Shown in pieces: positions 21,455 through 38,377 of a DNA stretch of 38,377 nucleotides. The stretch spans positions 1-38,377 of the forward strand of contig CAJCJH010000124.1 in the NCBI GenBank assembly GCA_903970615.1, given 5' to 3'. Origin of the DNA: Rhodospirillales bacterium. Lineage in GTDB: Bacteria > Pseudomonadota > Gammaproteobacteria > Nevskiales > Nevskiaceae. The notes beneath the pieces are model-generated. The model made no database searches. It had not been told where the DNA came from and saw only the letters and a program-made list of their open reading frames with translations. The translations under genes and the position numbers were made by a program. How positions within the stretch are numbered: the first letter of the stretch is position 1; each line of letters starts with the position of its first letter.

Positions 21455-21567
21455 CATGATCATCCGGCAAGAAAACTCAGCGGTCTGCCGTTCGCCACCT
21501 CATCCTTCCGGCTGATTTTTGCCTGCCGGACTTGCGGCGAGAATGCAGGACGCCCGATGGGACCGAA

Positions 21568-22374
21568 ATGATTGCCACCGAAGTTCACGCTGCCGCGCTG
21601 CCGAAGCCCGTTCCGCCACATGGATTGCTGGCCGGGCGCAGCGTCCTGGTCACCGCCGCGGCCGGCGGCGGTATCGGCTTTGCAACAGCGCAGCGCGTGC
21701 TGGAAGAAGGTGCGCGCGCCCTCGTGATCGCCGATATCCACGAGCGCCGTCTAGGCGAAGCGCTGGCCAAGCTGCGCGGCGAATTCGGTGAGCGAAGGAT
21801 CGAAGGCCGCATCGCCAACGTCACCGACGAATCGCAGGTTCAAAGCCTGATCGATTTTTCGGAAGAAGCCACTGGCGGTATCGATGTGCTGGTCAACAAT
21901 GCCGGGCTTGGCGGAACCCGGCGCGTGGTCGATATGAGCGATGAGGAATGGCATCGCGTGCTCGACGTCACGCTCACCGGCACGTTCCGCCTGACGCGCG
22001 CGATGCTGAAAAAAATGCAGCCGCGCGGCCGCGGCGCGATCGTCAACAATGCCTCGGTGCTCGGCTGGCGCGCGCAGAAGGAACAGGCGCACTACGCAGC
22101 GGCGAAGGCCGGGGTGATGGCGCTGACGCGCTGCTCCGCGCTGGAAGCCGCCGAGTACGGCATTCGCATCAATGCGGTATCGCCATCGATCGTATTTCAC
22201 GATCACCTGCGCAAGAGCGCGCCTGCCGAACTGCTGAAAGACCTGGCCGGCCGCGAGGCTTTCGGCCGCGCCGCCGAGAGCTGGGAAATTGCCAACGTCA
22301 TCGTCTTCCTGGCCTCGGATTACGCCTCGTATCTGGTGGGCGAAACCATTTCGGCTTCGAGCCAGCGCGCCTGA
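21568..22374 (+). CDS. ipdF: IpdF-like SDR, 5-oxo-HIP-CoA reductase
   Basis: This 268-aa SDR has TAAAGGGIG (29-37), HERRLGEAL after the cofactor turn, NNAGLGG (110-116), the S163/Y176/K180 triad within a NNASVLGWRAQ to HYAAAKAGVMALTRCS region, and ASDYASYLVGE near the end. These match Mycobacterium IpdF (Rv3559c), which reduces the 5-keto group of HIP-CoA. ATG 21568 is preferred to an in-frame upstream start at 21532 whose extra residues look non-family. It lies directly downstream of fadE30, as in the mycobacterial cluster where fadE30 and ipdF are adjacent. Confidence 0.87.
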   Translation: MIATEVHAAALPKPVPPHGLLAGRSVLVTAAAGGGIGFATAQRVLEEGARALVIADIHERRLGEALAKLRGEFGERRIEGRIANVTDESQVQSLIDFSEEATGGIDVLVNNAGLGGTRRVVDMSDEEWHRVLDVTLTGTFRLTRAMLKKMQPRGRGAIVNNASVLGWRAQKEQAHYAAAKAGVMALTRCSALEAAEYGIRINAVSPSIVFHDHLRKSAPAELLKDLAGREAFGRAAESWEIANVIVFLASDYASYLVGETISASSQRA

Positions 22375-22390
22375 ACCGCGCGCGCCTGCC

Positions 22391-22846
22391 ATGACTATCG
22401 TCTTCGACTCCGCCGAATCCATTCTCGCCGCCGTGGGCCAAACGCTGGGCGCAACGCCGTGGCTGCCGATCACTCAGCAGCGGATCGACACTTTCGCCGA
22501 AGCGACCGGCGATCATCAATGGATACACGTCGATCCGGTGCGCGCCAAAACCGGACCTTTCGGAACCACCATCGCGCACGGTTATCTGACGCTGTCGCTG
22601 TGCTCGATATTCCTGCCGCAGCTGGTTGAAGTGCGAATGAAGATGGGCGTGAACTATGGCTGCGACAAAGTGCGCTTCCCCAATGCCGTGAAAGTGGGCG
22701 CGCGCATCCGTGGCGCCGGCGAACTGGTTGGCGCCGAGAAAACCCGCGACGGCGGTGTGCAGGCAACGATCCGCGTGACTGTTGAAATCGACGGCGAAAC
22801 GCGGCCGGCTTGCGTCGCCGAAACCATTTCCCGCTATTACTTCTGA
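22391..22846 (+). CDS. MaoC-like enoyl-CoA hydratase
   Basis: This 151-aa single hot-dog protein has the hydratase-2 motif with D41 and H46 in GDHQWIHVD and the following [11 protein letters not shown] segment. It would hydrate a trans-2-enoyl-CoA to the (R)-3-hydroxyacyl-CoA. An in-frame upstream frame from 22289 overlaps ipdF and is rejected. The gene sits between ipdF and a thiolase and thus can supply the hydration step for one of the β-oxidation cycles. It is a stand-alone protein, not the MaoC-DUF35 fusion seen in ChsH2. Confidence 0.85.
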
Positions 22847-22856
22847 AGAGAATGCC

Positions 22857-24062
<1,206 letters not shown>

Positions 24063-24123: not shown

Positions 24124-25230
24124 ATGGCGCGAGTGATGACAGCAGACCTGGAAAAACTCCGGGTGAGACGGCAGGCGACGTTCGGCTGGCCGGCGATCGT
24201 GTTCGTGATCCTGACTGCGGCGGCAACTATTTTTTCGTTCTCGCCGCGTCCGGTGCCGTCATTTCCGCCGAGCGTCATTCATGTCGATCGCCTTCTCATC
24301 AACGGACTCGCCGCCTCCGGCAGGCGCTTGATCGCCGCGGGTGAGCAAGGTCACATTCTCATCGCAGACTCGCCCACCGGACCGTGGCGCGAAGCGAGCA
24401 TCGCCCATCCGCGCGGCTCGTCGTTGACGCAGGTGGCTTTCATCGACGACAAAACAGCGATCGCGGTCGGCCACGACAACTGGATCTTGCGCAGCGATGA
24501 TCGCGGCGAGACCTGGAAAGAAATGGCTTTCGATGGCGAACAGGGTAACGCGCTGCTCGGCATCGCCGGTCCTTACTCCGGCCGCCTGTTTGCGTTCGGC
24601 GGTTTCGGCGAACTGCGCAGCTCCGATGACCAAGGCCGCAGCTGGCAGAAAATTTCACTCGACGATGCAAAGGCTGCGAAATCTACAGTGCCTGCCAAGC
24701 CGGCCGATCCCAATGCATTTCCGTTCAGTGATTCCGCCGTATCAGCCGACGAGGACCGGCATATTTACGGCATTACCGCCTGCAGCGATGGCAGCCTGAT
24801 TCTCGCCGGTGAACGCGGCCTGCTGATGCGTTCGCACGACAACGGCGACCACTGGCAAAGCCTGCCATCGATTTATGCCGGTTCGTTCTTCGGTATTTTG
24901 TCGCTGAAAAATAATGCGCTGCTGGTCTACGGCATGCGTGGCAATGTGTTTCGCAGCGGCGATGCCGGCGCGCACTGGACCAAGATCGCCGTGCCGACCG
25001 ATCTGTCGCTGTTCGGCGGTGCGGTGACGCTGGCGGGCGAGGTGCTGCTGGTCGGCGATGCCGCAACGGTGCTGGAGTCGCACGACGCCGGCGCCAGCTT
25101 CACGCGCGTCGCCGCCGAAGGCCGCAAGGCCTTTTCGACCATTCTGCCGCTGGATAATACGCATTGGCTCACCGGCGGCGACGGCGGCATCAACCTGATC
25201 GCGGGAGATGCCGGCGGAGCGCATCGATGA
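24124..25230 (+). CDS. Membrane-anchored Asp-box (YCF48-like) β-propeller protein
   Basis: This 368-aa protein has one N-terminal transmembrane or signal-anchor segment (about 20-40, WPAIVFVILTAAATIF) preceded by basic residues, so the rest should be periplasmic. It then carries repeated Asp-box motifs of the S-x-D-x-G-x-x-W type: RSDDRGETW, RSSDDQGRSW, RSHDNGDHW, RSGDAGAHW and a degenerate ESHDAGASF, expected to build a β-propeller like YCF48/sialidase-type proteins. GGAGGA (24111-24116) supports the start. The stop overlaps the next ATG by 4 bp, so it is coupled to the MMPL permease and is probably its periplasmic partner. Enzymatic activity is not expected. Confidence 0.8.
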   Translation: MARVMTADLEKLRVRRQATFGWPAIVFVILTAAATIFSFSPRPVPSFPPSVIHVDRLLINGLAASGRRLIAAGEQGHILIADSPTGPWREASIAHPRGSSLTQVAFIDDKTAIAVGHDNWILRSDDRGETWKEMAFDGEQGNALLGIAGPYSGRLFAFGGFGELRSSDDQGRSWQKISLDDAKAAKSTVPAKPADPNAFPFSDSAVSADEDRHIYGITACSDGSLILAGERGLLMRSHDNGDHWQSLPSIYAGSFFGILSLKNNALLVYGMRGNVFRSGDAGAHWTKIAVPTDLSLFGGAVTLAGEVLLVGDAATVLESHDAGASFTRVAAEGRKAFSTILPLDNTHWLTGGDGGINLIAGDAGGAHR

Positions 25231-27623
25231 AATTCGGGCTGGGCAGGCTGGTCAACCGGTTTTCAGACATCCTGATCGCGCGCCGGCATTGGCTGTCGAT
25301 CGTTTTCCTGATGATGACCGCGGGCTTCGGCTATAGCGCCACCCATCTCAAGCTCGACCCCGGATTCCTCAAGCTGATTCCGGTCGAGCATCCGTACATG
25401 AAGACGATGATGCAGTACCTGAAGAATTTTTCAGGTGCGAACACCATGCTGATTTCGCTGCACTGGAAGGGCAAGGGCGATATCTACAATCCAGAATTCA
25501 TGCAGTCGATGCAGCAGGCGACCGATGAAGTGTTTTCGATTCCCGGCATCAACCGCACCAAGGTTTCGTCGATCTTTACGCCGGATGTTTATTACATCGA
25601 AATCACCGAGGATGGCTTCCGCGGCGCGCCGGTGGTGCCGGCGCAATTCGATCGCACGCCGCAGCAGCTGGAGCAGGTGCGTCATAACGTCGAGAATTCC
25701 GGGCAGCTCGGTCTGCTCGTCGCCAATGATCTGAAGAGCGCGCTGATCCGTGCCGACCTGCAGGATTACGATCCCAACGACGGTAGCAAGGTCGATTACT
25801 GGGAAGTGCAGAAGCGGCTCGAAGCGCTGCGCGCGCGGTTCGACAATGCCGATATCGAAGTCAATATCGTCGGCTTCGCACAATTGCTGGCCGATGTAAT
25901 TCACGGCCTGCTCGGCGTGATCGGATTTTTCCTGCTCGCGTTCGTCATCACCGCCTGCCTGCTTTACTGGTACACGCGCTCGCCGCGGCTGACCTTCACC
26001 GCGCTCACCGTTGCGCTGCTGCCGGTGCTGTGGCTGCTCGGCACGCTGCCGCTGATCGGCTTCGGCATCGATCCGCTGTCGATCCTGGTGCCATTTCTGA
26101 TTTTCTCGATCGGCGTCAGCCACGCGGTGCAGATGACCAACGCCTGGCGCAACGAAGTGGTGGGCGGCGCATCCGCGGTCGAAGCGTCGCGCGCCGCATT
26201 CCGCAAGCTGTTCATTCCCGGCGCGGTGGCATTGCTGACCAATGCGCTCGGCTTCGCCGTCATCATGTTCATCGACATTCCGATCGTGCGCGAACTCGGC
26301 GTCACGGCATGCCTCGGCGTACTGCTGATGATCGTCACCAACAAGATGATTCTGCCGATCATCCTCACGCATGTCCGGCTGGAATCTTCGAGCTGGAAGC
26401 AGCCTTGGCGCACCGCCCAGGCCAGCGGCTTGACCCGACTATGGCGCGCCGTCGGCAAATGCGCCGAAGAACGCACCGCGCTGTATGTCTTCGGCGTCTG
26501 TCTGCTGCTGCTGGCGGGAACCAGCCTGCTGTCGCGCGGAATGGTGATCGGTGATTCCGGCAGCGGCGCGCCGGAACTGCGCGCCAATTCACGTTACAAC
26601 ATCGATAGCCGCGCGGTGGCCGGTTCCTACGATATCGGCGTCGATATGCTCAGCGTGATCGTCGAGGCGCCGGATTTCGAGGGCGATTCCTGCCTGCATT
26701 ATCCGGTGGTGGACTTAATCGACCGCTTCGATCTTTACATGCGCGGCGTCGCCGGCGTGCGCTCGGTGACGAGTGTTGCCGGCATCGGCAAGCTGGTGAT
26801 TTCGGCTTTCAACGAGGGCAATCCGCGTTGGCGCACGCTACCGCGCAGCGAGGTCGGGCTATCCACCGGCTCGCGTGCGTTCGATCCGGGGCTGGGCCTG
26901 AACACCGAGAATTGCCGCGCGATCCAGACGCTGATTTTCATGCAGGATCACGAAGGCGCAACCATCGCGCACGCGATTGCCGAGATCAAGAAATTCATCG
27001 CCGCGAATCCGGTGGAGGGTGTCACCATGCGGCTGGCGAGCGGCAATGTTGGTGTGATGGCGGCGACCAACGAAGCGGTAGCCGCGGCCGAAGTAAAAAT
27101 GCTGCTGGCGATCTTCGGCGCATTGACCTTGCTGTGCTTCATCACGTTCCGCTCATGGCGCGCCGCGCTGTGCGTGATCGTGCCGCTGACCATCGTTTCG
27201 ATTTTCTGCAACGCCTTCATGGCGGTGCTCGGCATTGGTCTGAAAGTAGCCACGCTGCCGGTGATCGCGCTGGGTGTCGGCGTCGGCGTGGACTACGGCA
27301 TTTATCTGTTCGAGCGGATCACGCACTACATGAACGAAGGCCGCAGTTTCCAGGAATCCTTCTCGCTGGCGATGGACGAGCGCGGCAGCGCGGCGGTGTT
27401 TACCGCGATCACCATGTCGGTGGCCGTCGGCACCTGGATTTTATCCGCACTGAAACTGCAGGCCGACATGGGCCTGCTGCTGTCCTTCATGTTTCTCTAC
27501 AACATGCTCGGCGCGATCTGCCTGTTGCCGGCGCTGGGTGCGTGGCTGTTCCGCGATGGCGGCAAGACTTACGCGCTGACCGCCGCGCGGCCGCGGATCG
27601 TGCCGTCTTCCGGCCGCTCATGA
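25227..27623 (+). CDS. MMPL/RND-family permease
   Basis: This 798-aa inner-membrane transporter has the duplicated RND layout: a first TM helix (about 22-39), a periplasmic domain (40-220), a TM block (about 225-390) with GFGIDPLSILVPFLIFSIGVSHAVQM, a second single TM (about 430-450), another periplasmic domain, and a final TM block containing GVGVGVDYGIYLFERI. Such proteins use the proton gradient to move lipids or steroids across the envelope. Overlap with the YCF48-like gene suggests a complex. Steroid uptake or export is inferred from context; such pairs are often seen beside steroid and hydrocarbon genes. The longer frame start (25164) is rejected. Confidence 0.85.
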   Translation: MKFGLGRLVNRFSDILIARRHWLSIVFLMMTAGFGYSATHLKLDPGFLKLIPVEHPYMKTMMQYLKNFSGANTMLISLHWKGKGDIYNPEFMQSMQQATDEVFSIPGINRTKVSSIFTPDVYYIEITEDGFRGAPVVPAQFDRTPQQLEQVRHNVENSGQLGLLVANDLKSALIRADLQDYDPNDGSKVDYWEVQKRLEALRARFDNADIEVNIVGFAQLLADVIHGLLGVIGFFLLAFVITACLLYWYTRSPRLTFTALTVALLPVLWLLGTLPLIGFGIDPLSILVPFLIFSIGVSHAVQMTNAWRNEVVGGASAVEASRAAFRKLFIPGAVALLTNALGFAVIMFIDIPIVRELGVTACLGVLLMIVTNKMILPIILTHVRLESSSWKQPWRTAQASGLTRLWRAVGKCAEERTALYVFGVCLLLLAGTSLLSRGMVIGDSGSGAPELRANSRYNIDSRAVAGSYDIGVDMLSVIVEAPDFEGDSCLHYPVVDLIDRFDLYMRGVAGVRSVTSVAGIGKLVISAFNEGNPRWRTLPRSEVGLSTGSRAFDPGLGLNTENCRAIQTLIFMQDHEGATIAHAIAEIKKFIAANPVEGVTMRLASGNVGVMAATNEAVAAAEVKMLLAIFGALTLLCFITFRSWRAALCVIVPLTIVSIFCNAFMAVLGIGLKVATLPVIALGVGVGVDYGIYLFERITHYMNEGRSFQESFSLAMDERGSAAVFTAITMSVAVGTWILSALKLQADMGLLLSFMFLYNMLGAICLLPALGAWLFRDGGKTYALTAARPRIVPSSGRS

Positions 27624-27720: not shown

Positions 27721-28818
27721 ATGCAAGCAGTCGAAACGGAACAGTTGATCTCGGCGGATTCGCATGTCTACTTCACTTCCGATTGGGTCAAGCAGCGTCT
27801 GCGGCGTGATCTGCACGCGGTCTGGGACGATGCCACGGCGAAGGCTGAAGTGCATGCGGCGAAGGTGCTGCGCGGTGGTCAGCCGCAGTTGCATCTGGAA
27901 GATTTCGTCGATCCCTCGGCTTCGCAGGATCCGGGCTATAAAGATCCGCTCGGCAAGCTGCGGGCGATGGACCGCGACGGCGTTCACGCGGAAGTCATTT
28001 TCCCTGAACTCGGCGGCGCCAAAATCTGCCATCCGGCGCTGATGGGCAGCGACTGGAAGGAAGTGTTCCGCGGTTACAACCAGTCGATGGCGGATTTCGC
28101 ATCGAGCGATCCGGACCGCCTGCTGTGCGCCTATCAACTGCCGCTGCAGGATATTCCATTTGCGATCAGTGAAGTCGAACGGCTGGTGCGCGACTACAAG
28201 GCGCGCTGTGTGCAGCTGACGCCGTTTCCAAGTGATCTCGGCCTGCCGGATTTTCACGATCCGGTATATGCGCCGCTATGGCAAACGATCGAGGCCAGCG
28301 GTCTGACGATCATGAATCATCTCGATATGAAGACCCATCTCTGGGACGTCTTCCGCCGCGATCCAACGCCGCAAAAAGGCATTTTCACTGCCATGCCGTG
28401 GGCACCGCTGGCAGAGACCCTGTGCTTCTGGATTCTCACCGGCACGCTCGAACGCTATCCGAAAATGAAGGTGGTTTTCGTCGAGCCGGGCCTCGGCTGG
28501 TTGCCGTGGTTTTTTGAAACCCTGCTCGATCCGCGCATGCATCAGCATTATGAATTTCCTGGCGTGAAGCAGCCACCGAGCGAAACCTTCCGCAAGCAAT
28601 GCGGCGCCACATTCATGTATGAACCGAAAGGTCTGAAGGCGTTTTACGAATACTTCGGCGCGGATTGCCTGTACTGGTCAACCGATTTTCCGCATCCCGC
28701 AACCTGCTGGCCGAACTCGCAATCGCAGGTGGTCAGTCAATGCGCCGAAGCCGGTATTCCCGCTGCCGACCGGCGCAAGATCGTCAGCCAGAATGCCTTG
28801 CGCACCTTCGGACTTTAG
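27721..28818 (+). CDS. Amidohydrolase_2-family metal-dependent hydrolase/decarboxylase
   Basis: This 365-aa TIM-barrel protein is of the ACMSD/γ-resorcylate-decarboxylase-like amidohydrolase group. The N-terminal metal motif reads SADSHVY (D-x-H-x-Y) instead of the more usual D-x-H-x-H, NHLDMKTH carries a likely metal His, and STDFPHP holds the conserved C-terminal Asp. The reaction could be hydrolysis or non-oxidative decarboxylation; the substrate is unknown. A strong GAGGAG (27708-27713) supports the start. It opens the right-hand module and is preceded by a 97-bp gap after the permease gene, so it may start a new transcription unit. Confidence 0.8.
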   Translation: MQAVETEQLISADSHVYFTSDWVKQRLRRDLHAVWDDATAKAEVHAAKVLRGGQPQLHLEDFVDPSASQDPGYKDPLGKLRAMDRDGVHAEVIFPELGGAKICHPALMGSDWKEVFRGYNQSMADFASSDPDRLLCAYQLPLQDIPFAISEVERLVRDYKARCVQLTPFPSDLGLPDFHDPVYAPLWQTIEASGLTIMNHLDMKTHLWDVFRRDPTPQKGIFTAMPWAPLAETLCFWILTGTLERYPKMKVVFVEPGLGWLPWFFETLLDPRMHQHYEFPGVKQPPSETFRKQCGATFMYEPKGLKAFYEYFGADCLYWSTDFPHPATCWPNSQSQVVSQCAEAGIPAADRRKIVSQNALRTFGL

Positions 28819-28830
28819 CAGCGCGCGGGC

Positions 28831-28914
28831 GAGGTCTCGTCCATTTGCAGCATGCAGGTATGGGCTTGCGCGAACTAAGGTCTTCGCGTTGCCGGACGAA
28901 GTTTCAGAGACCTC
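28831..28914. repeat. Inverted repeat before the CaiB gene
   Basis: In the 129-bp gap after the amidohydrolase gene, GAGGTCTC (28831-28838) is mirrored by GAGACCTC (28907-28914). A smaller CTTCG/CGAAG hairpin (28882-28886/28897-28901) lies inside. This could be a leader structure or an operator; no T-run is present. No convincing ribosome-binding site lies before the ATG at 28948. Confidence 0.3.
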
Positions 28915-28947
28915 GTCGAGCAAACCAAAACAACATTGGATAACACT

Positions 28948-31416
28948 ATGGCTGGAGTGCTTGCAGGAATTCGCGTGCTGGACCTCAGCTGGGGTGTGGC
29001 TGGGCCGATGACGACGATGCTGATGGCCGATCACGGCGCCGCCGTCACCAAGATCGAGCCGCCGGGCGGCGATCCGTTCCGCGACCAGCTGGGCTACAAG
29101 GTCTGGCAGCGCGGCAAGAAGAGTGCGGTATTCGACTTGAAAGACGCTGCTGACAACAACAGTTTTCTGGTCTTGGCGAAGTCGGCGGACGTGATCGTCG
29201 AGAGCTATGCACCGGGTGTGACCGAGCGGCTCGGCATCGACTACAAAACCTTATCGGCACTGAATCCGCGCCTGATTTATTGCTCGATCACCGGCTATGG
29301 CCGCGACACTGCGGATGCCAATCGTCCGGCCTACGATGCGCTGGTCGCGGCGCGCACCGGCCTGCATTGGGAACAGCGCGGCTGGGCCGAAGGCGCGCTG
29401 AATCACCTCGCCGGACGCGATGATCCATTCCCCGACATGGAAGTGCCCTACGACTGGGTGCAGGGCGCGCCGCGACCCGGCCCGTTGTTTCCATCGTCGT
29501 ACTGGCCGAGTCTCGGCGCGTTCTTCGCGGCCAGCGTCGGTATCAACGCGGCTTTGCGTGCGCGCGAGCACAGTGGTCTCGGCCAGCGCGTGGAGACTTC
29601 CTTGCTGCAAGGTGCGATGGCCGGCGCGGCAGGGGTGTGGATGCGCGCCGAAAACATCGATGCGCCCGGTTTCGATTCCTGGATTCTGGGCTGCAAGGCG
29701 CCGAAGGGTCAGTTCAAATGCGCCGACGGCGAATGGATTCACAACTGGGTGCCGAATCCGCGCTTCATCCTTGGCTCATCGACCGGCGCAACCCTCAACG
29801 CATCGCCGGACCTGACGGTACAGAACGATCCCGACCGCTTTGGTACCGGACCGGAAGAACTGCTGGTGATGACGCATTACCAGCCGATCCTCGCCGAAGC
29901 AGTGGCGCGGTTCCCGGCGAAGGATTGGGTCGCCGCCGCCGCGACCGCCGAGATGACCATGCAAAACGTGCGCTCGGCCGAGGCTTCGCTGATCGATCCG
30001 CTGTTCCTGAAGGACGGCTGCGTGGTGGAAACCACCGATCCCGAACTCGGCACGCTGCGCACTGTCGGCCAGACCTACAAGCTGAGCGCGAATCCATCCC
30101 GGCCCGGCGCGCATGCGCCCAAGCCTGGCGAGCATACCGAGCAGGTCAAGGCCGAAGCCGCACGGCCGGCGCCGCAGCCCGGCAACGTAGCGAGCGGCAG
30201 AAAACTGAAGGCGCCGCTGGAAGGCATCGTCGTGCTTGATCTCGGTCTTGCGATTGCCGGACCGTTCGGCACGCAGTTGCTCAGCGATCTGGGTGCGACC
30301 GTCATCAAGATCAACGGCCTTTACGATATGTTCTGGCATCGCGTGCACATCGCCTACATGGCGAACCGCGGCAAGCAGAGCATCACGCTGAATCTGAAAG
30401 ATCCGCGCGCGATGGCGATCTTCCACAAGCTGCTGGCGAAGGCTGATGTGGTGCATCACAACATGCGCTATGACGCGGCCGAGCGGCTCAAGATCGATTA
30501 TGAGTCGCTGAAGAAACTGAAGCCGGATTTGATCTACTGCCACACGCGCGGCTTCGAAACCGGCGAGCGTGCCGGCTTGCCGGGCAACGACCAGACCGGC
30601 GCGTGTTTGTCCGGCATCCAGTTCGAGGACGGCGGCATGCACGATGGCGGCAAACCGCTGTGGAGCCTGACCAGCTTCGGCGATACCGGCAACGGCTTCC
30701 TGTCGGCGGTGGGGGTGATCCAGGCGCTGTATCACCGCGATCGCACCGGTGCAGGCCAGATGGTCGATACCTCGATCATCAACGCCGCGCTGCTGAACAC
30801 GTCCTATGCGGTGGCGAGGCCGGATGGCAGCGGCTTCGAGCGGCCGAAAATCGACGGTATGCAGTACGGCTATTCAGCGGGACATCGGCTCTATGAAACC
30901 CGGCAGGGATGGCTCTGCATCGTCGCGGTGAATGCCAGTCATTGGGATGCGTTGTTCGCCGCGACCGGGCTTGCCGAACTCGCGGTCGATCCGCGTTTTG
31001 CAACGGCTGATGCGCGCAAACAGAATGATGCCGCGCTGGCCGATTTGATCGCCGCCAAATTGAAAACGGACGATGCTGCCAACTGGTTTTCCAAGCTCGA
31101 TTCTGCCGATGTTCCGGTCGAAATCGTCGCGGAAGATTTCTCGAAAAAACTGCACGACAACGCCGAATTCCAGCGGCGCAAATGGGTGGTGTCGTATCCG
31201 CATCCGCATGTCGGCAAGCTCGACCAGATCGGCCTGCTGTTCGATCTTTCCGAAACACCCGGCGTGATTCAGGGGCGTCCGGTGATCGTCGGCGAGCATA
31301 CGCAGAAAATCCTCGGCGAACTCGGCTACAGCGAAAGCGAAATCCAAACGCTCGAAGAACAGTTTGCCATCGGTTTTGCAGGCATGCCGCGCATGCCGCC
31401 GCGCAAGGCTGCCTGA
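28948..31416 (+). CDS. Tandem-fused CaiB/BaiF class III CoA-transferase
   Basis: This 822-aa protein contains two complete CaiB/BaiF domains: residues ~7-380 (IRVLDLSWGVAGP; candidate catalytic D130 in NRPAYD) and ~423-822 (IVVLDLGLAIAGP; candidate catalytic D548 in GNDQTG), joined by a Pro/Ala-rich linker (about 385-420). Class III enzymes transfer CoA between acids via a catalytic Asp and usually work as interlocked dimers of ~400-aa chains, so this fusion may form the dimer in one chain. In Proteobacteria such CoA-transferases can activate steroid acids. ATG 28948 is preferred to the TTG at 28936, but neither has a good Shine-Dalgarno. The acid substrate is unknown. Confidence 0.85.
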   Translation: MAGVLAGIRVLDLSWGVAGPMTTMLMADHGAAVTKIEPPGGDPFRDQLGYKVWQRGKKSAVFDLKDAADNNSFLVLAKSADVIVESYAPGVTERLGIDYKTLSALNPRLIYCSITGYGRDTADANRPAYDALVAARTGLHWEQRGWAEGALNHLAGRDDPFPDMEVPYDWVQGAPRPGPLFPSSYWPSLGAFFAASVGINAALRAREHSGLGQRVETSLLQGAMAGAAGVWMRAENIDAPGFDSWILGCKAPKGQFKCADGEWIHNWVPNPRFILGSSTGATLNASPDLTVQNDPDRFGTGPEELLVMTHYQPILAEAVARFPAKDWVAAAATAEMTMQNVRSAEASLIDPLFLKDGCVVETTDPELGTLRTVGQTYKLSANPSRPGAHAPKPGEHTEQVKAEAARPAPQPGNVASGRKLKAPLEGIVVLDLGLAIAGPFGTQLLSDLGATVIKINGLYDMFWHRVHIAYMANRGKQSITLNLKDPRAMAIFHKLLAKADVVHHNMRYDAAERLKIDYESLKKLKPDLIYCHTRGFETGERAGLPGNDQTGACLSGIQFEDGGMHDGGKPLWSLTSFGDTGNGFLSAVGVIQALYHRDRTGAGQMVDTSIINAALLNTSYAVARPDGSGFERPKIDGMQYGYSAGHRLYETRQGWLCIVAVNASHWDALFAATGLAELAVDPRFATADARKQNDAALADLIAAKLKTDDAANWFSKLDSADVPVEIVAEDFSKKLHDNAEFQRRKWVVSYPHPHVGKLDQIGLLFDLSETPGVIQGRPVIVGEHTQKILGELGYSESEIQTLEEQFAIGFAGMPRMPPRKAA

Positions 31417-31453
31417 GCTTATCCATCGTGCTACTAAAACTCTCGTAAAATCC

Positions 31454-31891
31454 ATGAACCCGACTGCTGCAAACGATGGCGACAAGCCGATCCGCCTCGC
31501 GCCGATCGTCACGCCCGATGCGAAATTTTTCTGGGACGCGGCGGATCGCAGCGAATTCTTCGGCCAGAAATGCGGCGACTGCAATCGCTTCCGTTTTCCG
31601 CCGCGGCCGATGTGCCCGCATTGCTTCAGCGTCAAGCGCGAGGAAGTGGCGCTGTCGGGCCGCGGCAAGATTTACACCTGGATTCGGCCGCAGCACCCGC
31701 CCGCTTATGGCTTCCGCGAGCCGCCGATCGTCGCGGTGATCGAACTCGAGGAAGGCTTTCGTTTCGTCTCGAATATCGAGGGCATCGCTTTCGAGCAAGT
31801 CACAGCCGGCATGCCGGTTGAAGTGATGTTTGCGGACACTATGGGCAAACATAAGGTGCCGGTGTTCCGTCCGCTGGGACGCGGCGCATGA
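31454..31891 (+). CDS. DUF35/OB-fold zinc-ribbon protein, aldolase partner
   Basis: This 145-aa protein has an N-terminal helix and zinc ribbon with CGDC and CPHC pairs (C-x2-C-x11-C-x2-C), then an OB-fold (GRGKIYTWI, IELEEGFRFVSNI). DUF35 proteins bind acyl-CoA substrates for thiolase-like partners; in actinobacteria this domain is fused to MaoC in ChsH2 and partners Ltp2. Here it stands alone. Its stop overlaps the start of the Ltp2-like gene by 4 bp (31888-31891), which argues for a stoichiometric complex. An upstream in-frame start at 31364 lies in the CaiB gene and is rejected. Confidence 0.85.
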   Translation: MNPTAANDGDKPIRLAPIVTPDAKFFWDAADRSEFFGQKCGDCNRFRFPPRPMCPHCFSVKREEVALSGRGKIYTWIRPQHPPAYGFREPPIVAVIELEEGFRFVSNIEGIAFEQVTAGMPVEVMFADTMGKHKVPVFRPLGRGA

Positions 31892-33054
31892 GCCGCACAT
31901 TTCAGGAAGCAGCGATCGCGGGGATCGGTGCGACGGAATTCTCGAAGGAATCCGGCCGTAGCGAATTGCAACTCGCCGCCGAATGCGCCAAGGCGGCCTG
32001 CGACGATGCCGGTATCGCGCCCTGCGATATCGACGGCATGATTACCTTCACGCTCGACAACAGCGATGAAATCACGCTGGCGCGCTGTCTCGGCGTCAAC
32101 GATCTTGCGTACACCGCGCGCATTCCCGGCGGCGGTGCGGCGGCGGTGGCGACGATCTATCAGGCGATGGCGCTGGTCAACGCCGGTCTCTGCAAAAACG
32201 TGCTGATCTGGCGTGCGATGAACGAACGCAGCCAGTATCGCTTTGGCCAGAACGCCAGCGGCGGCAGCTACACCGCTGGCAATGGCACCGGCTCGCTGCT
32301 GTGGTGCGTACCGTTCGGCGCGATGACGCCCGGCACCTGGGAATCGCTCGCCGCGCAACGCTATATGCAGGTCTACGGTATTCGCAATGAAGACTTCGGC
32401 CGCGTCTCCGTGGTGCAGCGAAAATATGCGGCGAGTAATCCCAAAGCCTGGTTTTACAACAAGCCGATCACGCTTGACGATCATCAGAATGCGAAGTGGA
32501 TTGTCGAGCCGGTGCTGCGTCTTTACGACTGCTGCCAGGAGTCCGATGGTGGCCAGGCGATTCTGGTGACTTCGCTGGAACGCGCGCGCGATCTCAAACA
32601 GAAACCGGTGCACATCGTCGGTGCGTGCCAGTCGATTCCGTATAACGTCGAAGTGATCTCGAACTATTATCACGATGCCGATCTCGCCTTGATGCCGGAA
32701 GCCGAAGGCACCGCGAAACGGCTCTACGCGCAGACCGGCATGAAGCCCGAAGATATGCAGGTGGCGATGCTCTACGATGCGTTCACGCCGCAGGTGTTCA
32801 AGCAGCTCGAAGCCTTTGGTTTCTGCAAACGCGGCGAGGCCAGGGATTTCGTCGCCGACGGCAATCTCGAATTGAACGGAAAACTGCCGGTAAATACGCA
32901 CGGTGGACTGATCGGCGAAGCCTACATCCACGGCATGAACAGCATCGCCGAAATGGTGAGGCAGGTCCGCGGCACGGCGGTGAACCAGGTTGCGAAAGTC
33001 GACTACGCGCTGTGCTCATCCGGCATGGCTGGCGCCATTCTGGCGAAGGTTTGA
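31888..33054 (+). CDS. ltp2: Ltp2-type steroid side-chain aldolase (thiolase fold)
   Basis: This 388-aa lipid-transfer-protein-type thiolase-fold enzyme matches Ltp2 along its length: IVGIGATEFSK-like start, SGRSELQLA, NERS-RFGQ, NPKAWFYNKPIT, LYDCCQESDG, and NTHGGLIGEAYIHGMN. The thiolase nucleophile is missing: the site reads IPGGGAAAVAT (79-89). Y296 (LYDAFTP) and Y346 (EAYIHG) align with tyrosines thought to be catalytic in Ltp2. Known Ltp2-DUF35 complexes split 17-hydroxy-3-oxo-4-pregnene-20-carboxyl-CoA into androstenedione and propionyl-CoA. This suggests that the host handles sterol or bile-acid side chains; FadE28/29 and ChsH1 partners are not in the window. Confidence 0.83.
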   Translation: MSRTFQEAAIAGIGATEFSKESGRSELQLAAECAKAACDDAGIAPCDIDGMITFTLDNSDEITLARCLGVNDLAYTARIPGGGAAAVATIYQAMALVNAGLCKNVLIWRAMNERSQYRFGQNASGGSYTAGNGTGSLLWCVPFGAMTPGTWESLAAQRYMQVYGIRNEDFGRVSVVQRKYAASNPKAWFYNKPITLDDHQNAKWIVEPVLRLYDCCQESDGGQAILVTSLERARDLKQKPVHIVGACQSIPYNVEVISNYYHDADLALMPEAEGTAKRLYAQTGMKPEDMQVAMLYDAFTPQVFKQLEAFGFCKRGEARDFVADGNLELNGKLPVNTHGGLIGEAYIHGMNSIAEMVRQVRGTAVNQVAKVDYALCSSGMAGAILAKV

Positions 33055-33063
33055 AGCGCACGC

Positions 33064-34086
33064 ATGTCTGCCGTGGCCGAGCCGTCGAAGACGCCGCTGA
33101 AACCATTGGCGCCGGCGCGCAGCATCATCCGGCATGTCGATAGCGGCCTGAGCTTGCCGGGCGAAAATCGCTTGCAGCTTGCCGTCGAAGTTCGATGGCC
33201 TGATCGCACACAATTCCCGCAGCCATCGATCGCACTGGTGTGCCTGCCCGGCGGCGGCATGAACCGGCGTTTCTTCGATCTGATTCCAGCCGATGGCGGC
33301 ACCGATTTCAGCTTCGCCGAACAGATGCGCGCGCGCGGATTCATCGTCATTCTGGTGGATCACCTCGGCGTTGGCGACAGTAGCCGTCCGCGCGATGTTT
33401 TCAGTTTGACGCCGGAAGTGTTGACCCAGACGAACCAGCACGCCGTCGAATACATCGTCAGCGCTTTGCGTGATGGCTCGCTCACCAGCGAACTGCCCGC
33501 GCTGACGAATCTGAGAACCATTGGTGTCGGCCATTCGATGGGTGCCTTGCTCACGCTCGTGCAGCAGCATGAATTTCATCCGCACGCGGCAGTCGCGGTG
33601 CTGGGTTTTTCCACTGGCGGCCTGCCGCAATATGTGAGCGAAGAAGCACTCGGCTTGATGGCCGCCGATGCGGTCGGTATCCGCAAAGAACTGGAGCGAT
33701 TGGCGCGTGCGCAGTTTGGCGATGCGCCTTCGGTGCGGCGTTCATCGCCGCAGTCCGGCGATCTTTTCGCGGCCGCGAAAGCCGATCCGCGCGGTATCGC
33801 CGCGCTCAAACCTGCACTTGCGCCGATGCTGCCGGTGCCGGCATTTCTGTCGATGCTGCCGGGCAATATCGCAGCCGAATGCGCAGCGATCGACGTGCCG
33901 GTTTTCATCGGCGTGGGCGAACTCGACATGACCGGCCCCGCGCAGCTCATTCCCGCAGCGTTCAGCACCAGCCGCGACGTTACGCTGGAGGTGTTGCCGC
34001 AAGCCGGGCATAGTCATTTCATATTTCCTGCGCGCGCCCAACTGTTCGACCGACTGGCCGAATGGGCTGCCGCACGAATGCACTGA
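33064..34086 (+). CDS. α/β-hydrolase fold protein
   Basis: This 340-aa α/β-hydrolase has nucleophile S158 in GVGHSMG, candidate acid D288 in VGELDMTG and H316 in QAGHSHF, a full triad. An oxyanion region is seen at LPGGGMNRRF (61-70). No signal peptide is apparent, so it is probably cytosolic. It follows the aldolase gene by 9 nt. Possible substrates are steroid esters, lactones or CoA thioesters; nothing in the sequence fixes this. The family is too broad for a symbol. Confidence 0.82.
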   Translation: MSAVAEPSKTPLKPLAPARSIIRHVDSGLSLPGENRLQLAVEVRWPDRTQFPQPSIALVCLPGGGMNRRFFDLIPADGGTDFSFAEQMRARGFIVILVDHLGVGDSSRPRDVFSLTPEVLTQTNQHAVEYIVSALRDGSLTSELPALTNLRTIGVGHSMGALLTLVQQHEFHPHAAVAVLGFSTGGLPQYVSEEALGLMAADAVGIRKELERLARAQFGDAPSVRRSSPQSGDLFAAAKADPRGIAALKPALAPMLPVPAFLSMLPGNIAAECAAIDVPVFIGVGELDMTGPAQLIPAAFSTSRDVTLEVLPQAGHSHFIFPARAQLFDRLAEWAAARMH

Positions 34087-34109
34087 TTTCAGGATTGGGA
34101 GATTCAACA

Positions 34110-34427
34110 ATGGCAATGATCGCGCTGAAAGCCGGCGGACGTTTCAAGAGCGCAGTGAGCGAAGTACAGGTGATGGTCATCAAGGCGCCGCCGGGCGAAC
34201 ATCGGGTGCAATGCGGCGGCGTGGACATGCTCGGCGCCAATGCGCCTGCGCCGGAACCGGCCGCCATCGATTCCGCGGATAGTGGCGAAACGCTGATCGG
34301 CAAGCGTTATGTCAACGCCGATGAATCGCTCGAACTGCTGTGTACCAAAGGTGGCAAAGGCAGCTTGACGCTCGGCGGCGCGGCGCTGGAAATCAAGCAG
34401 GCCAAACAGTTGCCTTCGTCCGACTGA
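34110..34427 (+). CDS. Small uncharacterised protein (105 aa)
   Basis: I do not recognise the family with certainty. The 105-aa protein has an N-terminal β-like stretch, a Pro/Ala-rich middle (GANAPAPEPAA, 42-52) and a C-terminal segment IGKRYVNADESLELLCTKGG with two cysteines overall, C35 and C78. It has no TM segment or signal peptide. A GGGAG Shine-Dalgarno (34097-34101) precedes the start and the gene fits neatly between the hydrolase gene and the ligase gene with short gaps, so it is likely real and expressed. The C-to-C arrangement and Gly-rich tail could suggest a small carrier or accessory subunit, but this is speculation. Confidence 0.65.
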   Translation: MAMIALKAGGRFKSAVSEVQVMVIKAPPGEHRVQCGGVDMLGANAPAPEPAAIDSADSGETLIGKRYVNADESLELLCTKGGKGSLTLGGAALEIKQAKQLPSSD

Positions 34428-34442
34428 GCGTAGGGCGCACCG

Positions 34443-35990
34443 ATGAATATCACGATGATTCTCGACATGGCCGCCGATGCCTTCGGCGATCGTGTCGGCG
34501 TCGTCGCCGGTGCGCAGCGGCTGACTTACGCCGAGCTGCGCCAGCGCGCATATGCGGGGGCCGCTTACTTGCGTGTCAGCGGCGCATCGCGGGTAGCCCT
34601 GCTCGACGTCAACAGTCCCGCGGCCGCGGTTGCGATTTTCGCCGCTGCTTATGCCGGCATTCCGTATGTGCCGCTGAACTACCGGCTGACCCGCGCAGAA
34701 ATCAACGCGCTGCTGGCGCGCATCGCACCCGCAGCGGTGATCGCGGGCGGCGAACATCTCGCGCTGGTCGATGAACGCGAAGGCATTCGCGTAATCGCCC
34801 GCGAGGCATTCCTGAATTTGCCGGATACCGATGAAGCTTTGCCCGAGGCCACCGACGATCCCCGCGCCATCGCCGTGCAGCTGTTCACCAGCGGCACCAC
34901 CGGTCAGCCAAAGGCGGCGATCCTGCGTCACGAAAACCTGATGGGCTACATCATCGGCACCGTGGAATTCGCCTGCGCCGGAGACGACGATGCGATTCTG
35001 GTGACAGTGCCGCCTTATCACATCGCCGGGATTTCCGCGGTGCTCAGTTCCACCTACGCCTGCCGTCGCATGGTGCAGCTGGAAGCTTTCGACGCCGCCG
35101 CATGGATCGATGCCGTGCAGCGCGAACAGGTGAGCAATGCCTTCGTTGTGCCGACGATGCTCGGGCGCATTGTCGATCTGCTGGAAAAAAGTGCGTATGC
35201 AAAACTGCCGGCGTTGCGTTCGCTCGCTTATGGCGGCGGAAAAATGCCGGCGGTCACGATCGAACGCGCGATGCGGCTGCTGCCGCAGGTCGATTTCACC
35301 AACGCTTACGGACTTACCGAAACCAGTTCGACGATCGCGGTGCTCGGCCCGGAGGATCATCGGTCCGCGATCACTTCAAACCAGCCGGAAGTGCGGCGGC
35401 GGCTGTCTTCGGTCGGCCGGCCGACGGCCGCTGTCGAAATCGAAATCCGTGCAGAAGATGGCCGCGTGCTCGGCGCTGGCGAAGCCGGCCTGGTGTTCGT
35501 GCGCGGGCCGCAGGTGTCCGGTGAATATCTGTCGCAAGGCCAGGCAGTGAGTCAGCCGCAAGGCAGCCCGCTCGATGCGGAGGGCTGGTTTGCCACGCGC
35601 GACCGCGGTTATCTCGATGCCGACGGCTATCTGTTCCTCGATGGCCGCGCGGACGATGTGATCGTGCGCGGCGGCGAGAATATTTCGCCCGGCGAGATCG
35701 AAGACGTGCTGCTGCAACATCCGGCCATCGCCGACGCAGCGGTCGTCGCCATTGCGGATGAACAATGGGGCGAAGGCGTGGCCGCTGCGATCGTGCTCAA
35801 GCCGGATGCGCAGGCGTCCATCGAAGAATTGCAGGATTTCGTCAAGCGACAATTGCGTTCGTCGCGGGTGCCGCAAGTCATCGCGTTTCGGGATCAGCTG
35901 CCGTACAACGAACTCGGCAAGGTGTTGCGGCGGCAGGTGCGGCAGGAATTGGCCGAGCTTCAGCCGCAACCGCAAACGGCGGTGGCGTAA
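34443..35990 (+). CDS. Class I acyl-CoA synthetase
   Basis: This 515-aa AMP-forming ligase has P-loop TSGTTGQPK (149-157), YGLTET (289-294), GRADDVIVRGGENISPGEIE (401-420) and the A10 lysine K493 (LGKVLRR). The usual TGD triad before the hinge reads TRD (385-387). It probably loads CoA on a steroid or side-chain carboxylate for the module around it, or on a HIP-like acid in parallel to the ligase at 6305. The two ligases are clearly different subfamilies. It starts 15 nt after the small protein gene. Confidence 0.82.
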   Translation: MNITMILDMAADAFGDRVGVVAGAQRLTYAELRQRAYAGAAYLRVSGASRVALLDVNSPAAAVAIFAAAYAGIPYVPLNYRLTRAEINALLARIAPAAVIAGGEHLALVDEREGIRVIAREAFLNLPDTDEALPEATDDPRAIAVQLFTSGTTGQPKAAILRHENLMGYIIGTVEFACAGDDDAILVTVPPYHIAGISAVLSSTYACRRMVQLEAFDAAAWIDAVQREQVSNAFVVPTMLGRIVDLLEKSAYAKLPALRSLAYGGGKMPAVTIERAMRLLPQVDFTNAYGLTETSSTIAVLGPEDHRSAITSNQPEVRRRLSSVGRPTAAVEIEIRAEDGRVLGAGEAGLVFVRGPQVSGEYLSQGQAVSQPQGSPLDAEGWFATRDRGYLDADGYLFLDGRADDVIVRGGENISPGEIEDVLLQHPAIADAAVVAIADEQWGEGVAAAIVLKPDAQASIEELQDFVKRQLRSSRVPQVIAFRDQLPYNELGKVLRRQVRQELAELQPQPQTAVA

Positions 35991-35999
35991 ACCCGAATC

Positions 36000-36458
36000 G
36001 TGGCCTTCCTCATCGAACACGATCTGGAAATTTCCGCGCCTGCCGAAGTGGTCTGGGAAGTCATCAGCGATCTGCCGCGCTATGGCGAATGGAACCCGTT
36101 CTGTATCGAAGTACGATCCACGCTCAAGCCCGGCGATACGATCGACATGCGAGTGAAGCTTGGCAAACGTGCGCAATTCCAGCGTGAATTCGTCACCGAT
36201 TACGATGCGGGCCGCGGCTTCGCCTATCGGATGAAACCGGCTCCGGCGGGTGCCTTGTCGAGCCGGCGTGCGCATCAGATCCGCGCGCTCGACGCGCAGC
36301 GCTGCCGTTATCAGTCGCAGTTCCGTCTGCAAGGCTGGCTGGTGCCGCTGGTTCGTGGCCTGCTCGGCGCGCGTTTGCAGACGGGATTTTCCGGCATGAG
36401 CCATGCCGTCAAGCAGCGTGCGGAACAATTATGGGAGCAGCGTAAACGCGCGGTATGA
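36000..36458 (+). CDS. SRPBCC (START-like) family protein
   Basis: This 152-aa protein has a polyketide cyclase/START-like β-barrel pattern: an opening IEHDLEISAPAEVVWEVISD, a central PRYGEWNPFC motif and a C-terminal long helix (GFSGMSHAVKQRAEQLWEQ). Such proteins bind hydrophobic ligands in a cavity; a steroid-binding or isomerase-like role is a reasonable inference. The start is GTG at 36000, 9 nt after the ligase stop, with no clear Shine-Dalgarno, which fits coupling to the ligase. The next gene begins 6 nt after it. Confidence 0.8.
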   Translation: MAFLIEHDLEISAPAEVVWEVISDLPRYGEWNPFCIEVRSTLKPGDTIDMRVKLGKRAQFQREFVTDYDAGRGFAYRMKPAPAGALSSRRAHQIRALDAQRCRYQSQFRLQGWLVPLVRGLLGARLQTGFSGMSHAVKQRAEQLWEQRKRAV

Positions 36459-36464
36459 CGAGCC

Positions 36465-37871
36465 ATGCCTGACGACATCGCCGCATCTCTTGCCGTTGCA
36501 GAGCGCAGCGCTTTCGCCATCGAAACCGAGGCCGGCGAATGCTATGGCCGGCTCCTGTTGCAACAGCTTGGTGCGCATCCGCAACGATCGCTGTCGGTCA
36601 TCCAGCAACATCCCGCGGTGGCTTTCGCGCGCAGCGGTTTGATGTGGCTGACCGGTGCCGCCGACGGCGAGCCGCAGATGTGTCCGGTAGCCATTGCTTC
36701 GTGTGCGGACGGTGCGCTGGCCGCCTTGGCGAGTCTGTCGCCCGAGGCCAGTGCGCTGGATCATCTGCGCGGTGCGGCGCTGTTGGCGGAGCGTGCGGCA
36801 TGGTCTGGCGCGACGCGGCGCGGCGACGTATCGGCGGGCGGCAGTTGTCGTCTGCTCTCTGCGTGCGATGCAAGGCTCGCGGTGAATCTGGCGCGCGATG
36901 AGGATTGGTCGCTGGTACCCGCCTGGCTGCAAGCGCCGGCTGCGGACTGGCCGCAAATCAGCGAACTTGTGATTCAGCGGCCTGCGGATGAACTCGTGCA
37001 GCGCGCGCGCTGGCTCGGGCTTGCGGTTGTGCGATCCGAAATTCCGCCAGTCAATCGAGCTTGGGCCAATCGAGCGTGGTTTACGACTATCGCCGAAGGC
37101 CCGCGAAAGCAGCGGCGGGAAAATCAACGCCCGCGCGTGCTCGATCTTTCATCGCTGTGGGCCGGGCCGCTATGCGGCCGTTTGCTGGCCATGCTCGGCG
37201 CCGAGGTGGTGAAGCTTGAAAGCGTCTCGCGGCCGGACGGCGCGCGATCAGGCTCACCGGTTTTTTTCGATGCGATGAACGCCGGCAAGCTCAACGTGGC
37301 GATCGACTTGACGACGGCGGCCGGGTGCACGCAGTTGAGCGACTTGCTGGATAGTGCGGATATCGTTATCGAGGCATCGCGCCCGCGCGCCTTGCGGCAG
37401 CTGGGCATTGATGCGGAAGCGCGCATCCGCAACGGCAATGGCCAGACCTGGATCAGCATCACCGGCTATGGCCGCCGCGCACCGCAGGATCAATGGATCG
37501 CCTACGGTGATGATGCCGGCGTCGCCGGTGGACTTACTGAACTGCTGCGGATGGCAAGCGGCCAGACGCTGCTCTGTGCCGATGCGATCGGTGATCCCTT
37601 GACCGGCCTGCATGCTGCGCTCGCAGCTTGGGCGGTATATCAACAGGGCGGCGGAAGGCTGCTGTCGATCCCAATGCGCGATGTCGTGGCGCAGATTGCG
37701 AACTTCGATCGGCCGCATTCAGCTTCTGCGTTGCGCACGCGCTGGCAAGGTTGGCAGCAACTGGCCGCAGGAGAAATCGCGGCACCCGCCGCTGATTTAC
37801 CGCGGGGACAAGCGCGGCCTTTGGGTGCTGATACGGCGAAGGTTTTGAGGGATTGGCGCGTCGAATGTTGA
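36465..37871 (+). CDS. CaiB/BaiF-family CoA-transferase with N-terminal extension
   Basis: This 468-aa protein has a CaiB N-terminal Rossmann signature, RVLDLSSLWAGPLCGRLLAMLG, only from residue 224 on. A possible catalytic Asp lies in YGDDAG (349/350). The first ~210 residues resemble the CaiB C-terminal or linker domain weakly, so the order looks permuted or duplicated and degenerate. The C-terminal domain ends early (~240 residues after the Rossmann start). Its stop overlaps the next ATG by 7 bp. Activity is uncertain; it could be a non-catalytic partner of the tandem enzyme at 28948. Confidence 0.72.
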   Translation: MPDDIAASLAVAERSAFAIETEAGECYGRLLLQQLGAHPQRSLSVIQQHPAVAFARSGLMWLTGAADGEPQMCPVAIASCADGALAALASLSPEASALDHLRGAALLAERAAWSGATRRGDVSAGGSCRLLSACDARLAVNLARDEDWSLVPAWLQAPAADWPQISELVIQRPADELVQRARWLGLAVVRSEIPPVNRAWANRAWFTTIAEGPRKQRRENQRPRVLDLSSLWAGPLCGRLLAMLGAEVVKLESVSRPDGARSGSPVFFDAMNAGKLNVAIDLTTAAGCTQLSDLLDSADIVIEASRPRALRQLGIDAEARIRNGNGQTWISITGYGRRAPQDQWIAYGDDAGVAGGLTELLRMASGQTLLCADAIGDPLTGLHAALAAWAVYQQGGGRLLSIPMRDVVAQIANFDRPHSASALRTRWQGWQQLAAGEIAAPAADLPRGQARPLGADTAKVLRDWRVEC

Positions 37872-38377
37872 TTCGCAATGCCGAGATTTTCTGCGAAGCC
37901 GGCGCGCTCAGGCGCGTCGATCTGCGAATCTCCGATGGCCTCATCGAAGCGCTGGGACCGCGGCTGCAAAGACGCCAAGCGGAATTCGTTTTCGATGCGA
38001 TGGGTGGGCTGCTATTGCCTGGTCTGCACGATCAGCATCTGCACCTTCGAGCATTGGCGGCGGAGCAGGCGTCGGTGCGGTGCGGACCGCCGGAAGTGCT
38101 GTGCGAAACGGCGCTGAGTGTGGGATTGCATTCGGCATCCGCGTCACTGGCGCCAGGCGAATGGCTGCGCGGAACCGGCTACCACGAAAGCGTGGCCGGT
38201 TTGATCGATCGAGACTGGCTGGATCGACACGGACCGGCGCGGCCGATTCGCATGCAACATCGCGGCGGGCGTTGCTGGTTTTTCAACAGCCGGGCTTTGC
38301 ACGAGATCGGCGTCGATCCGGATCGACTCGATGACAATCCGCTGGAGCGTATCGGCGGCCGCGCCACCGGCCGTCTT
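37865..38377 (+). CDS. Amidohydrolase_3/YtcJ-like metal hydrolase, 3'-truncated by window
   Basis: The first 171 codons are present and the frame is open to the window edge. The N-terminus LIRNAEIF and the metal-binding H58-L-H60 in LPGLHDQHLHL are hallmarks of the amidohydrolase superfamily, and the RGTGYHES and GRATGRL segments resemble YtcJ-type (amidohydrolase_3) proteins. The ATG overlaps the CaiB stop by 7 bp (37865-37871). The function in this module is unknown; a C-C or C-N hydrolase is possible. It is the second amidohydrolase-superfamily gene in the window but from a different subgroup than 27721. Confidence 0.75.
   Translation, partial: MLIRNAEIFCEAGALRRVDLRISDGLIEALGPRLQRRQAEFVFDAMGGLLLPGLHDQHLHLRALAAEQASVRCGPPEVLCETALSVGLHSASASLAPGEWLRGTGYHESVAGLIDRDWLDRHGPARPIRMQHRGGRCWFFNSRALHEIGVDPDRLDDNPLERIGGRATGRL

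Follow-up and report, generated by a model that had tools for sequence, protein, structure and literature searches.

The block and its distribution

What reaction is served by a tightly packed run of coenzyme A (CoA) enzymes, an aldolase and amidohydrolase-fold proteins that lies beside steroid genes? The question is raised by contig CAJCJH010000124.1 of assembly GCA_903970615.1, a genome named Rhodospirillales bacterium and assigned by its GTDB lineage to the Nevskiaceae. The whole analysed stretch of 38,377 nucleotides is called the window, and its last part, positions 27721-38377 on the + strand, is called the block. A preliminary description, made from the letters alone, had listed ten families on one strand of the block. 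Pfam and NCBIfam searches identify all of them, in order, with two corrections: a single fused gene accounts for the "tandem CaiB", and the YtcJ-like gene is partial because the contig stops at 38377. The genes are:

27721..28818, +: AH2, an Amidohydro_2 (PF04909) amidohydrolase-fold enzyme (Pfam), PtmU3/DitZ-like; candidate acyl-CoA hydroxylase
28951..31416, +: CaiBf, a double type III CoA-transferase, a single gene for 821 amino acids with two CaiB halves (CoA_transf_3; Pfam)
31454..31891, +: DUF35, a stand-alone ChsH2-type zinc ribbon plus OB fold (zf-ChsH2/OB_ChsH2_C; Pfam) without a MaoC domain
31888..33054, +: Ltp2-type aldolase of the YD[A/N]F clade, with Y296, Y346 and Ala298 replacing His
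33064..34086, +: alpha/beta-hydrolase (ABH; Pfam)
34110..34427, +: ORF105, a conserved orphan of 105 amino acids with a beta-rich model and no PDB fold match
34443..35990, +: AMP-binding (AMP-forming) acyl-CoA ligase (Pfam, NCBIfam), mostly adjoining ORF105
36000..36458, +: SRPBCC-family protein (Pfam)
36465..37871, +: CaiB2, a CaiB-family protein with swapped segment order; Asp377 aligns with Asp169 of E. coli CaiB
37853..38377, +: YtcJ-like Amidohydro_3 gene (Pfam), partial at the contig end

The largest intergenic gap is about 130 bases, between AH2 and CaiBf, and two gene pairs overlap. Codon-usage scores support every gene except the partial YtcJ, the lowest being those of DUF35, SRPBCC and CaiB2.

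The block is part of steroid catabolism, because CaiBf and Ltp2 are confined to genomes with IpdE2, a marker of C/D-ring degradation. Among 117 related genomes, the window's own included, IpdE2 has been found in 45 and KshA_C in 47. CaiBf is present in 44 genomes, all within the IpdE2 set, G003 being the exception. Ltp2, at 74% identity or above, is likewise present in 44 genomes of that set, the exception being G029 (the G001 copy is split into two fragments, and G003 encodes a further Ltp2-type protein, 53% identical, with its motif unread). ORF105 occurs in 45 genomes; it is absent from G029 and has one weak occurrence without IpdE2. AH2 is found in 33 genomes and never without IpdE2. Fisher p values for co-occurrence with the steroid markers range from 1e-31 to 2e-19; they ignore kinship and overstate independence because the 117 genomes are kin. 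Within eight genera the steroid core is both present and absent, and CaiBf tracks the core with G003 as the sole exception. The attachment to steroid genes claimed in the preliminary description is thus borne out, and the co-occurrence with these genes is far beyond chance.

Gene order has been compared in 32 stretches around CaiBf. AH2 is immediately upstream of CaiBf in 21 of them, and DUF35-Ltp2 lies inside the stretch in 17. Outside the Nevskiaceae, AH2-CaiBf-DUF35-Ltp2-ORF105, with or without ABH, forms one run at loci L133 and L140. Two Acidimicrobiia loci, L260 and L261, cluster a CaiBf start, a PF04909 protein, a YDAF-Ltp2, DUF35 and a second PF04909 protein on mixed strands and in a different order, and L262 has just a PF04909-like gene, Ltp2 and DUF35 (Pfam was applied to L260 only among these three).

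The named relatives from GTDB contigs (80 of 103 relatives covered) belong mainly to the Nevskiaceae, namely Hydrocarboniphaga, Solimonas, Nevskia, Sinimarinibacterium, Panacagrimonas and Stagnimonas. The closest Ltp2, 90% identical, is that of Hydrocarboniphaga effusa AP103, a different genus of the family. Cultured relatives with block genes are H. effusa AP103 (aldolase) and Stagnimonas aquatica and Hydrocarboniphaga daqingensis, whose loci also have AH2. The block as a whole is nearest to that of H. effusa (L126/G047), while the window's own genus group includes metagenome-assembled genomes labelled Nevskia whose copies are less similar, a pattern that may point to transfer within the Nevskiaceae. 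Block genes have also been seen on contigs labelled Verrucomicrobia, Caulobacterales and Acidobacteria (L125, L132, L138). These may be misbinned, and L125 appears Nevskiaceae-like (Ltp2 82%). Near the block in Nevskiaceae, DUF1329 genes are found in 27 of 112 loci and DUF1302 genes in 5 of 112; both may serve uptake, and L038:16756-18123 and L063:17491-19101 are examples from the two groups.

The aldolase, AH2 and the predicted reaction

The aldolase matches the NCBIfam model PRK07855, "lipid-transfer protein", with 521.9 bits (cut-off 469), and its best solved relative is Ltp2 of Thermomonospora curvata (TcLtp2, PDB 6ok1; E 3e-133). In TcLtp2 the catalytic residues are Tyr294, which lies in a YDHF motif, and Tyr344, and the His of YDHF forms the oxyanion hole (PMC12329534). 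The two tyrosines align with Y296 and Y346 of the window's aldolase and are invariant in 40 of 40 rows, and DUF35 has a four-cysteine (C4) zinc pattern, C-x2-C-x10-C-x2-C, at C40, C43, C54 and C57 of its translation. The sequence kinship, both catalytic tyrosines and a DUF35 partner with a C4 pattern are thus shared with TcLtp2-ChsH2. The His position, however, is occupied by Ala in 35 and Asn in 5 of the 40 rows, the window (YDAF) included, and DUF35 stands alone. The Sal-Shy bile acid aldolase of Comamonas is also a proteobacterial thiolase-fold aldolase with a DUF35 partner, but Sal has the motif YDCY, Gln instead of the second Tyr and a zinc site of the Cys3His type (PMC12329534), where the window has YDAF, Tyr346 and the C4 pattern.

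A tree built from 70 rows, 66 of them different, separates 52 YD[A/N]F rows from 15 YDHF rows and one unscored row by a branch with support 95/91. Two long-branch outliers, the Ala row L264 and the His row L257, fall in neither clade. The rows include loci reached twice, the unscored motif is that of L263, and L242/L244 and L260-L262 are flagged as possibly falsely joined; outside the Nevskiaceae the motif has been read at 30 loci. By this tree the YD[A/N]F aldolases form a clade of their own, with a predicted active site unlike both studied types, Ltp2 and Sal. The neighbours of the two types have also been compared. A Pfam scan for hydratase candidates covered the neighbours of five YDHF-type or unscored copies (L247, L248, L258, L259 and L263), and those of the first four, all YDHF, are MaoC, ChsH2-type or ACAD (acyl-CoA dehydrogenase) genes. 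Another YDHF copy, L246, has a CaiB gene downstream. The YD[A/N]F copies adjoin CaiBf, DUF35, ORF105 or the ligase. Both types co-exist in five of 23 genomes (G117, G126, G131, G133 and G139, the last being Croceicoccus estronivorus), probably also in G118, and in G132 only if the outlier L264 is counted. Since five genomes hold both, the YD[A/N]F aldolase is not merely a stand-in for the canonical side-chain aldolase. No other Ltp2-type protein has been found in the window's own genome, where a second steroid aldolase was considered and rejected: the only other Thiolase_C_1 protein (contig C120) has a GHP thiolase motif.

AH2 had been counted in the preliminary description as one of two metal hydrolases, but this is only a label. 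Among solved structures it is closest to PtmU3 (E 2.3e-22) and then to DitZ (E 3.8e-18), with decarboxylases further down, and PtmU3 is a diiron beta-hydroxylase of diterpenoid biosynthesis that takes CoA-ligated, polycyclic substrates (PMC7782822). The metal ligands of the related AibH2 are Asp25, His27, His211, Glu265, Asp337 and His340 (PMC7782822). All six are matched in AH2, by D13, H15, H200, E255, D322 and H325, and these counterparts are kept in every covering row (27 to 29 of 29 rows). PF04909 contains many uncharacterised oxygenases, which have been spotted through adjacent Rieske genes (PMC10811679). The PF04909 protein of L260 likewise has DitZ and PtmU3 as its best matches. The strongest argument for joining AH2 to the aldolase is that the Acidimicrobiia, which belong to another phylum, show the same linkage with a different gene order. 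A role of AH2 as a replacement for HsaD was rejected, as HsaD-like matches are found in 44 of the 45 IpdE2 genomes, with or without AH2 (G070 has none). These matches are a weak marker because all are below the family cut-off and they also occur in genomes without the steroid core.

Based on these observations, we tentatively favour the block as a steroid-catabolic unit for CoA-dependent retro-aldol C-C cleavage with AH2 as the likely hydroxylase, a proposal that stands slightly short of even probability. In this proposal, the AMP-forming ligase would load CoA onto a steroid-derived carboxylic acid, and CaiBf, judging from one conserved Asp, may pass CoA from the released acyl-CoA to the next acid. 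The acyl-CoA would then receive a beta-hydroxyl. In most of the genomes AH2 would probably carry out this step, the weakest of the proposal, as a metal-dependent hydroxylase of the PtmU3 kind. In genomes without AH2, the acyl-CoA dehydrogenase pair and the MaoC hydratase encoded upstream could provide the hydroxyl. Retro-aldol cleavage between C-alpha and C-beta by the DUF35-Ltp2 pair would yield a short acyl-CoA together with a ketone or aldehyde; with a C22 side-chain stub as substrate, the short acyl-CoA would be propionyl-CoA.

Several observations weigh against this proposal, most of them against the part given to AH2. The acidic residue two positions past the last His, Glu313 in PtmU3 and Asp342 in AibH2, has been tied to the second metal (PMC7782822), and this position is Ala327 in AH2, with Ala in 27 of 27 covering rows. 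In the window, AH2 has no Rieske gene as a neighbour. AH2 is also the sole PF04909 match found in the genome, so that no partner like AibH1 is available. AH2 is absent from 12 of the 45 genomes with IpdE2, among them H. effusa (G047), although these keep the aldolase. Second copies of AH2 occur in six genomes; in the four loci that were fetched (L216-L219, from G049, G057, G053 and G052; 74-77% identical), they adjoin KshA-type, HsaA and HsaC genes in four of four, a setting that would also fit a ring role. Finally, the catalytic Asp of CaiBf is common to CaiB-family proteins whatever their exact reaction.

A wider form of the proposal has also been considered, namely a new O2-dependent route common to Pseudomonadota and Acidimicrobiia. 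Here an amidohydrolase-fold oxygenase would beta-hydroxylate a steroid or triterpenoid acyl-CoA ester, a YD[A/N]F Ltp2-DUF35 pair without the oxyanion His would cleave it, and CaiBf would recycle CoA. We regard this route as rather improbable.

Competing explanations and the upstream genes

The following genes lie upstream of the block:

7864-8154, other strand: 2Fe-2S ferredoxin gene
9284..24062, +: left operon, with an HsaC-like dioxygenase, an IpdA/B-type CoA transferase, EchA20-, IpdC-, IpdE1/E2- and FadA6-like genes, an ACAD pair, SDR, MaoC and a thiolase
19134-21451: ACAD pair of the left operon
22391: MaoC of the left operon
24103-25230: YCF48-like gene, before the MMPL transporter gene
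25227..27623, +: MMPL transporter gene, directly upstream of the block, probably for uptake

The left operon combines C/D-ring (HIP) genes with the HsaC-like dioxygenase and also contains FadD3, which scores over its cut-off. Several of the gene names follow those of the KstR2 regulon. No ACAD or MaoC gene is found from AH2 to the contig end, and the MaoC gene and the ACAD pair lie 9-12 kb upstream.

The first competitor is an ordinary removal of the C20-C22 side chain, in which the ACAD pair would dehydrogenate, MaoC would hydrate and DUF35-Ltp2 would cleave, AH2 being an unrelated hydrolase. The block would then be the Nevskiaceae counterpart of ChsE1E2/ChsH1H2/Ltp2. The kinship of the aldolase with Ltp2, the presence of the ACAD pair, MaoC and thiolase in the same long gene run, the lack of any other Ltp2-type protein in the genome and the dispensability of AH2 in 12 IpdE2 genomes are all in its favor. 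However, the YD[A/N]F site differs from that of TcLtp2, and five genomes hold both aldolase types. The ACAD pair also scores best with the pimeloyl-CoA dehydrogenase and IpdE2 models, far under their cut-offs, and the block genes are retained as strictly as the ring genes. Taken together, this explanation appears unlikely, although it is the stronger of the competitors.

Alternatively, the block may act on the ring skeleton, on a non-sterol triterpenoid or on an estrogen-type intermediate. A ring-derived acyl-CoA would be hydroxylated and cleaved, and CaiB2, ORF105 and the ligase would serve C/D-ring fragments. This would agree with the near-perfect co-occurrence with ring genes, with the FadA6-like genes that adjoin ORF105-ligase in many Acidimicrobiia loci and with the KshA/HsaA/HsaC setting of the second AH2 copies. 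It would also agree with C. estronivorus (L178), a degrader of estrone, in which AH2, ABH, ORF105, CaiB2 and YtcJ are grouped with FadA6-, MaoC- and SDR4-like genes, and with the edc estrogen cluster, which has lipid-transfer and ChsH2-like genes of its own (PMC7793797). However, the C/D-ring route of Comamonas and Mycobacterium is not known to need an Ltp2-type aldolase. A side chain is also what the nearest characterised aldolase cleaves (PMC12329534). This second competitor is less likely still. The preliminary idea of side-chain or ring processing keeps its steroid link, while a side-chain role is less certain in view of the genomes with both aldolase types and the several block genes in C. 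estronivorus.

Chance clustering of common CoA-metabolism genes can be dismissed, for although single families are widespread (CaiB-type matches to CaiBf appear in 1218 plasmid records, all below 60% identity), it is refuted by the co-occurrence with steroid genes and by a gene order kept across many genera.

Accessory genes, known systems and significance

The retro-aldol proposal leaves the roles of the accessory genes to be considered. Both halves of CaiBf have the usual order of large- and small-domain segments, and Asp169 of E. coli CaiB aligns with D578 in the second half and with a Ser in the first. A role as an alpha-methylacyl-CoA racemase is disfavoured, since the racemase His would probably correspond to Asn546. 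In CaiB2, residues 53-194 align with residues 144-325 of E. coli CaiB (E 3.1e-06) and residues 224-412 with residues 16-208 (E 2.9e-27). Because the two alignment pieces come reversed, the segment order is swapped, with part of the sequence repeated, and the protein looks like either a circular permutation or a tandem that has been shortened at each end. Asp377 of CaiB2 is invariant in 40 rows, and Foldseek alignments to CaiB-family enzymes span about 200-280 columns at a query template modelling score below 0.4. The swapped form is conserved in Nevskiaceae, Alphaproteobacteria and Acidimicrobiia. In PDB searches, the ligase matches general acyl-CoA ligases without a steroid clue, and ABH has one weak match.

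ORF105 has no match in Pfam or NCBIfam (34107-34424). Its structure model is confident and beta (predicted local distance difference test score 91.9), but a fold search of the PDB gives no match at E<=0.001 and a profile search of PDB sequences is empty. An internal repeat was rejected, the hhalign probability being only 5.9. Among 80 named loci, ORF105, the ligase and CaiB2 are found together in Nevskiaceae, Alphaproteobacteria (L157, L171), a Thiotrichales metagenome-assembled genome (L141) and many Acidimicrobiia. In the Acidimicrobiia loci CaiB2 is on the opposite strand, and FadA6- and ACAD4-like genes are close by. The modelled protein might assist the ligase as a small binding or scaffold protein. 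Diverged second copies of ORF105 (44-54% identical) are found in 9 of the 117 genomes in addition to a copy of full-length type (for example G056:C1:380566, G055:C4:1792 and G035:C102:107136), and the lone weak copy is that of G069.

The aerobic 9,10-seco pathway gene set is present in the window's genome, with KstD-, KshA-, HsaA-, HsaC-, HsaD- and IpdAB-type genes all found. The KstD-, HsaA- and KshA-type genes are together on contig C80 and the HsaD-like gene is on C8; the KstD, HsaA, HsaC and HsaD matches are under their NCBIfam equivalog cut-offs, and KshA_C exceeds its Pfam cut-off. Steroid degradation through the 9,10-seco route had already been predicted for the genus Hydrocarboniphaga (PMC4810484). 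A sterol start of the CYP125 type was rejected, as the sole P450 match in the genome has CYP51 as its best solved relatives. This CYP51-like gene (L215:1435-2829, G000:C8) and the HsaD-like gene of C8 are separated by about 3 kb, and a similar-looking P450 gene adjoins HsaC in L217. A HipA-like gene (HipA_C, Couple_hipA) lies at 1533-2765 (-), inside the steroid region of the window.

The preliminary description regarded the combination as undescribed, and no description of it has been found in open-licence PMC papers. The known systems share parts of it. Besides the active-site differences, fused CaiB and PF04909 genes adjoin the aldolase here, in place of the MaoC hydratase genes of TcLtp2-ChsH2. 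A DUF35-linked aldolase step in steroid degradation is also found in ORF40-44 of Comamonas testosteroni and the igr-type operon of Mycobacterium tuberculosis (PMC12502768), but there the dehydrogenase, MaoC hydratase and aldolase genes are together, whereas the block has no ACAD or MaoC; DUF35 is also not fused to MaoC as in the igr-type set (ChsE1E2, ChsH1H2, Ltp2). The edc cluster of Novosphingobium tardaugens is alike in its lipid-transfer protein and ChsH2-like gene, but the available text names no fused CaiB, PF04909 or 105-residue orphan gene there (PMC7793797). AH2 is like PtmU3 and AibH2, the dinuclear oxygenases (PMC7782822, PMC10811679), in its six ligand counterparts but has Ala for the acidic residue after the last His and no adjacent Rieske gene. 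The putative sterol carrier-like gene ditF is required for growth in the degradation of resin acids (PMC13063091).

Proteobacterial steroid degradation beyond Comamonas and Pseudomonas is poorly charted, and the block provides a defined gene set retained by nearly every steroid-core genome of one family. Platensimycin biosynthesis likewise has an Ltp2-like protein paired with DUF35. The O2-dependent route, if true, would mirror in catabolism the PtmU3 step of platensimycin biosynthesis. Since the genes are present in cultured relatives, the question can be tested directly. If AH2 is an oxygenase, a metal-dependent hydroxylase would be added to steroid catabolism, with a possible biocatalyst for C-C cutting.

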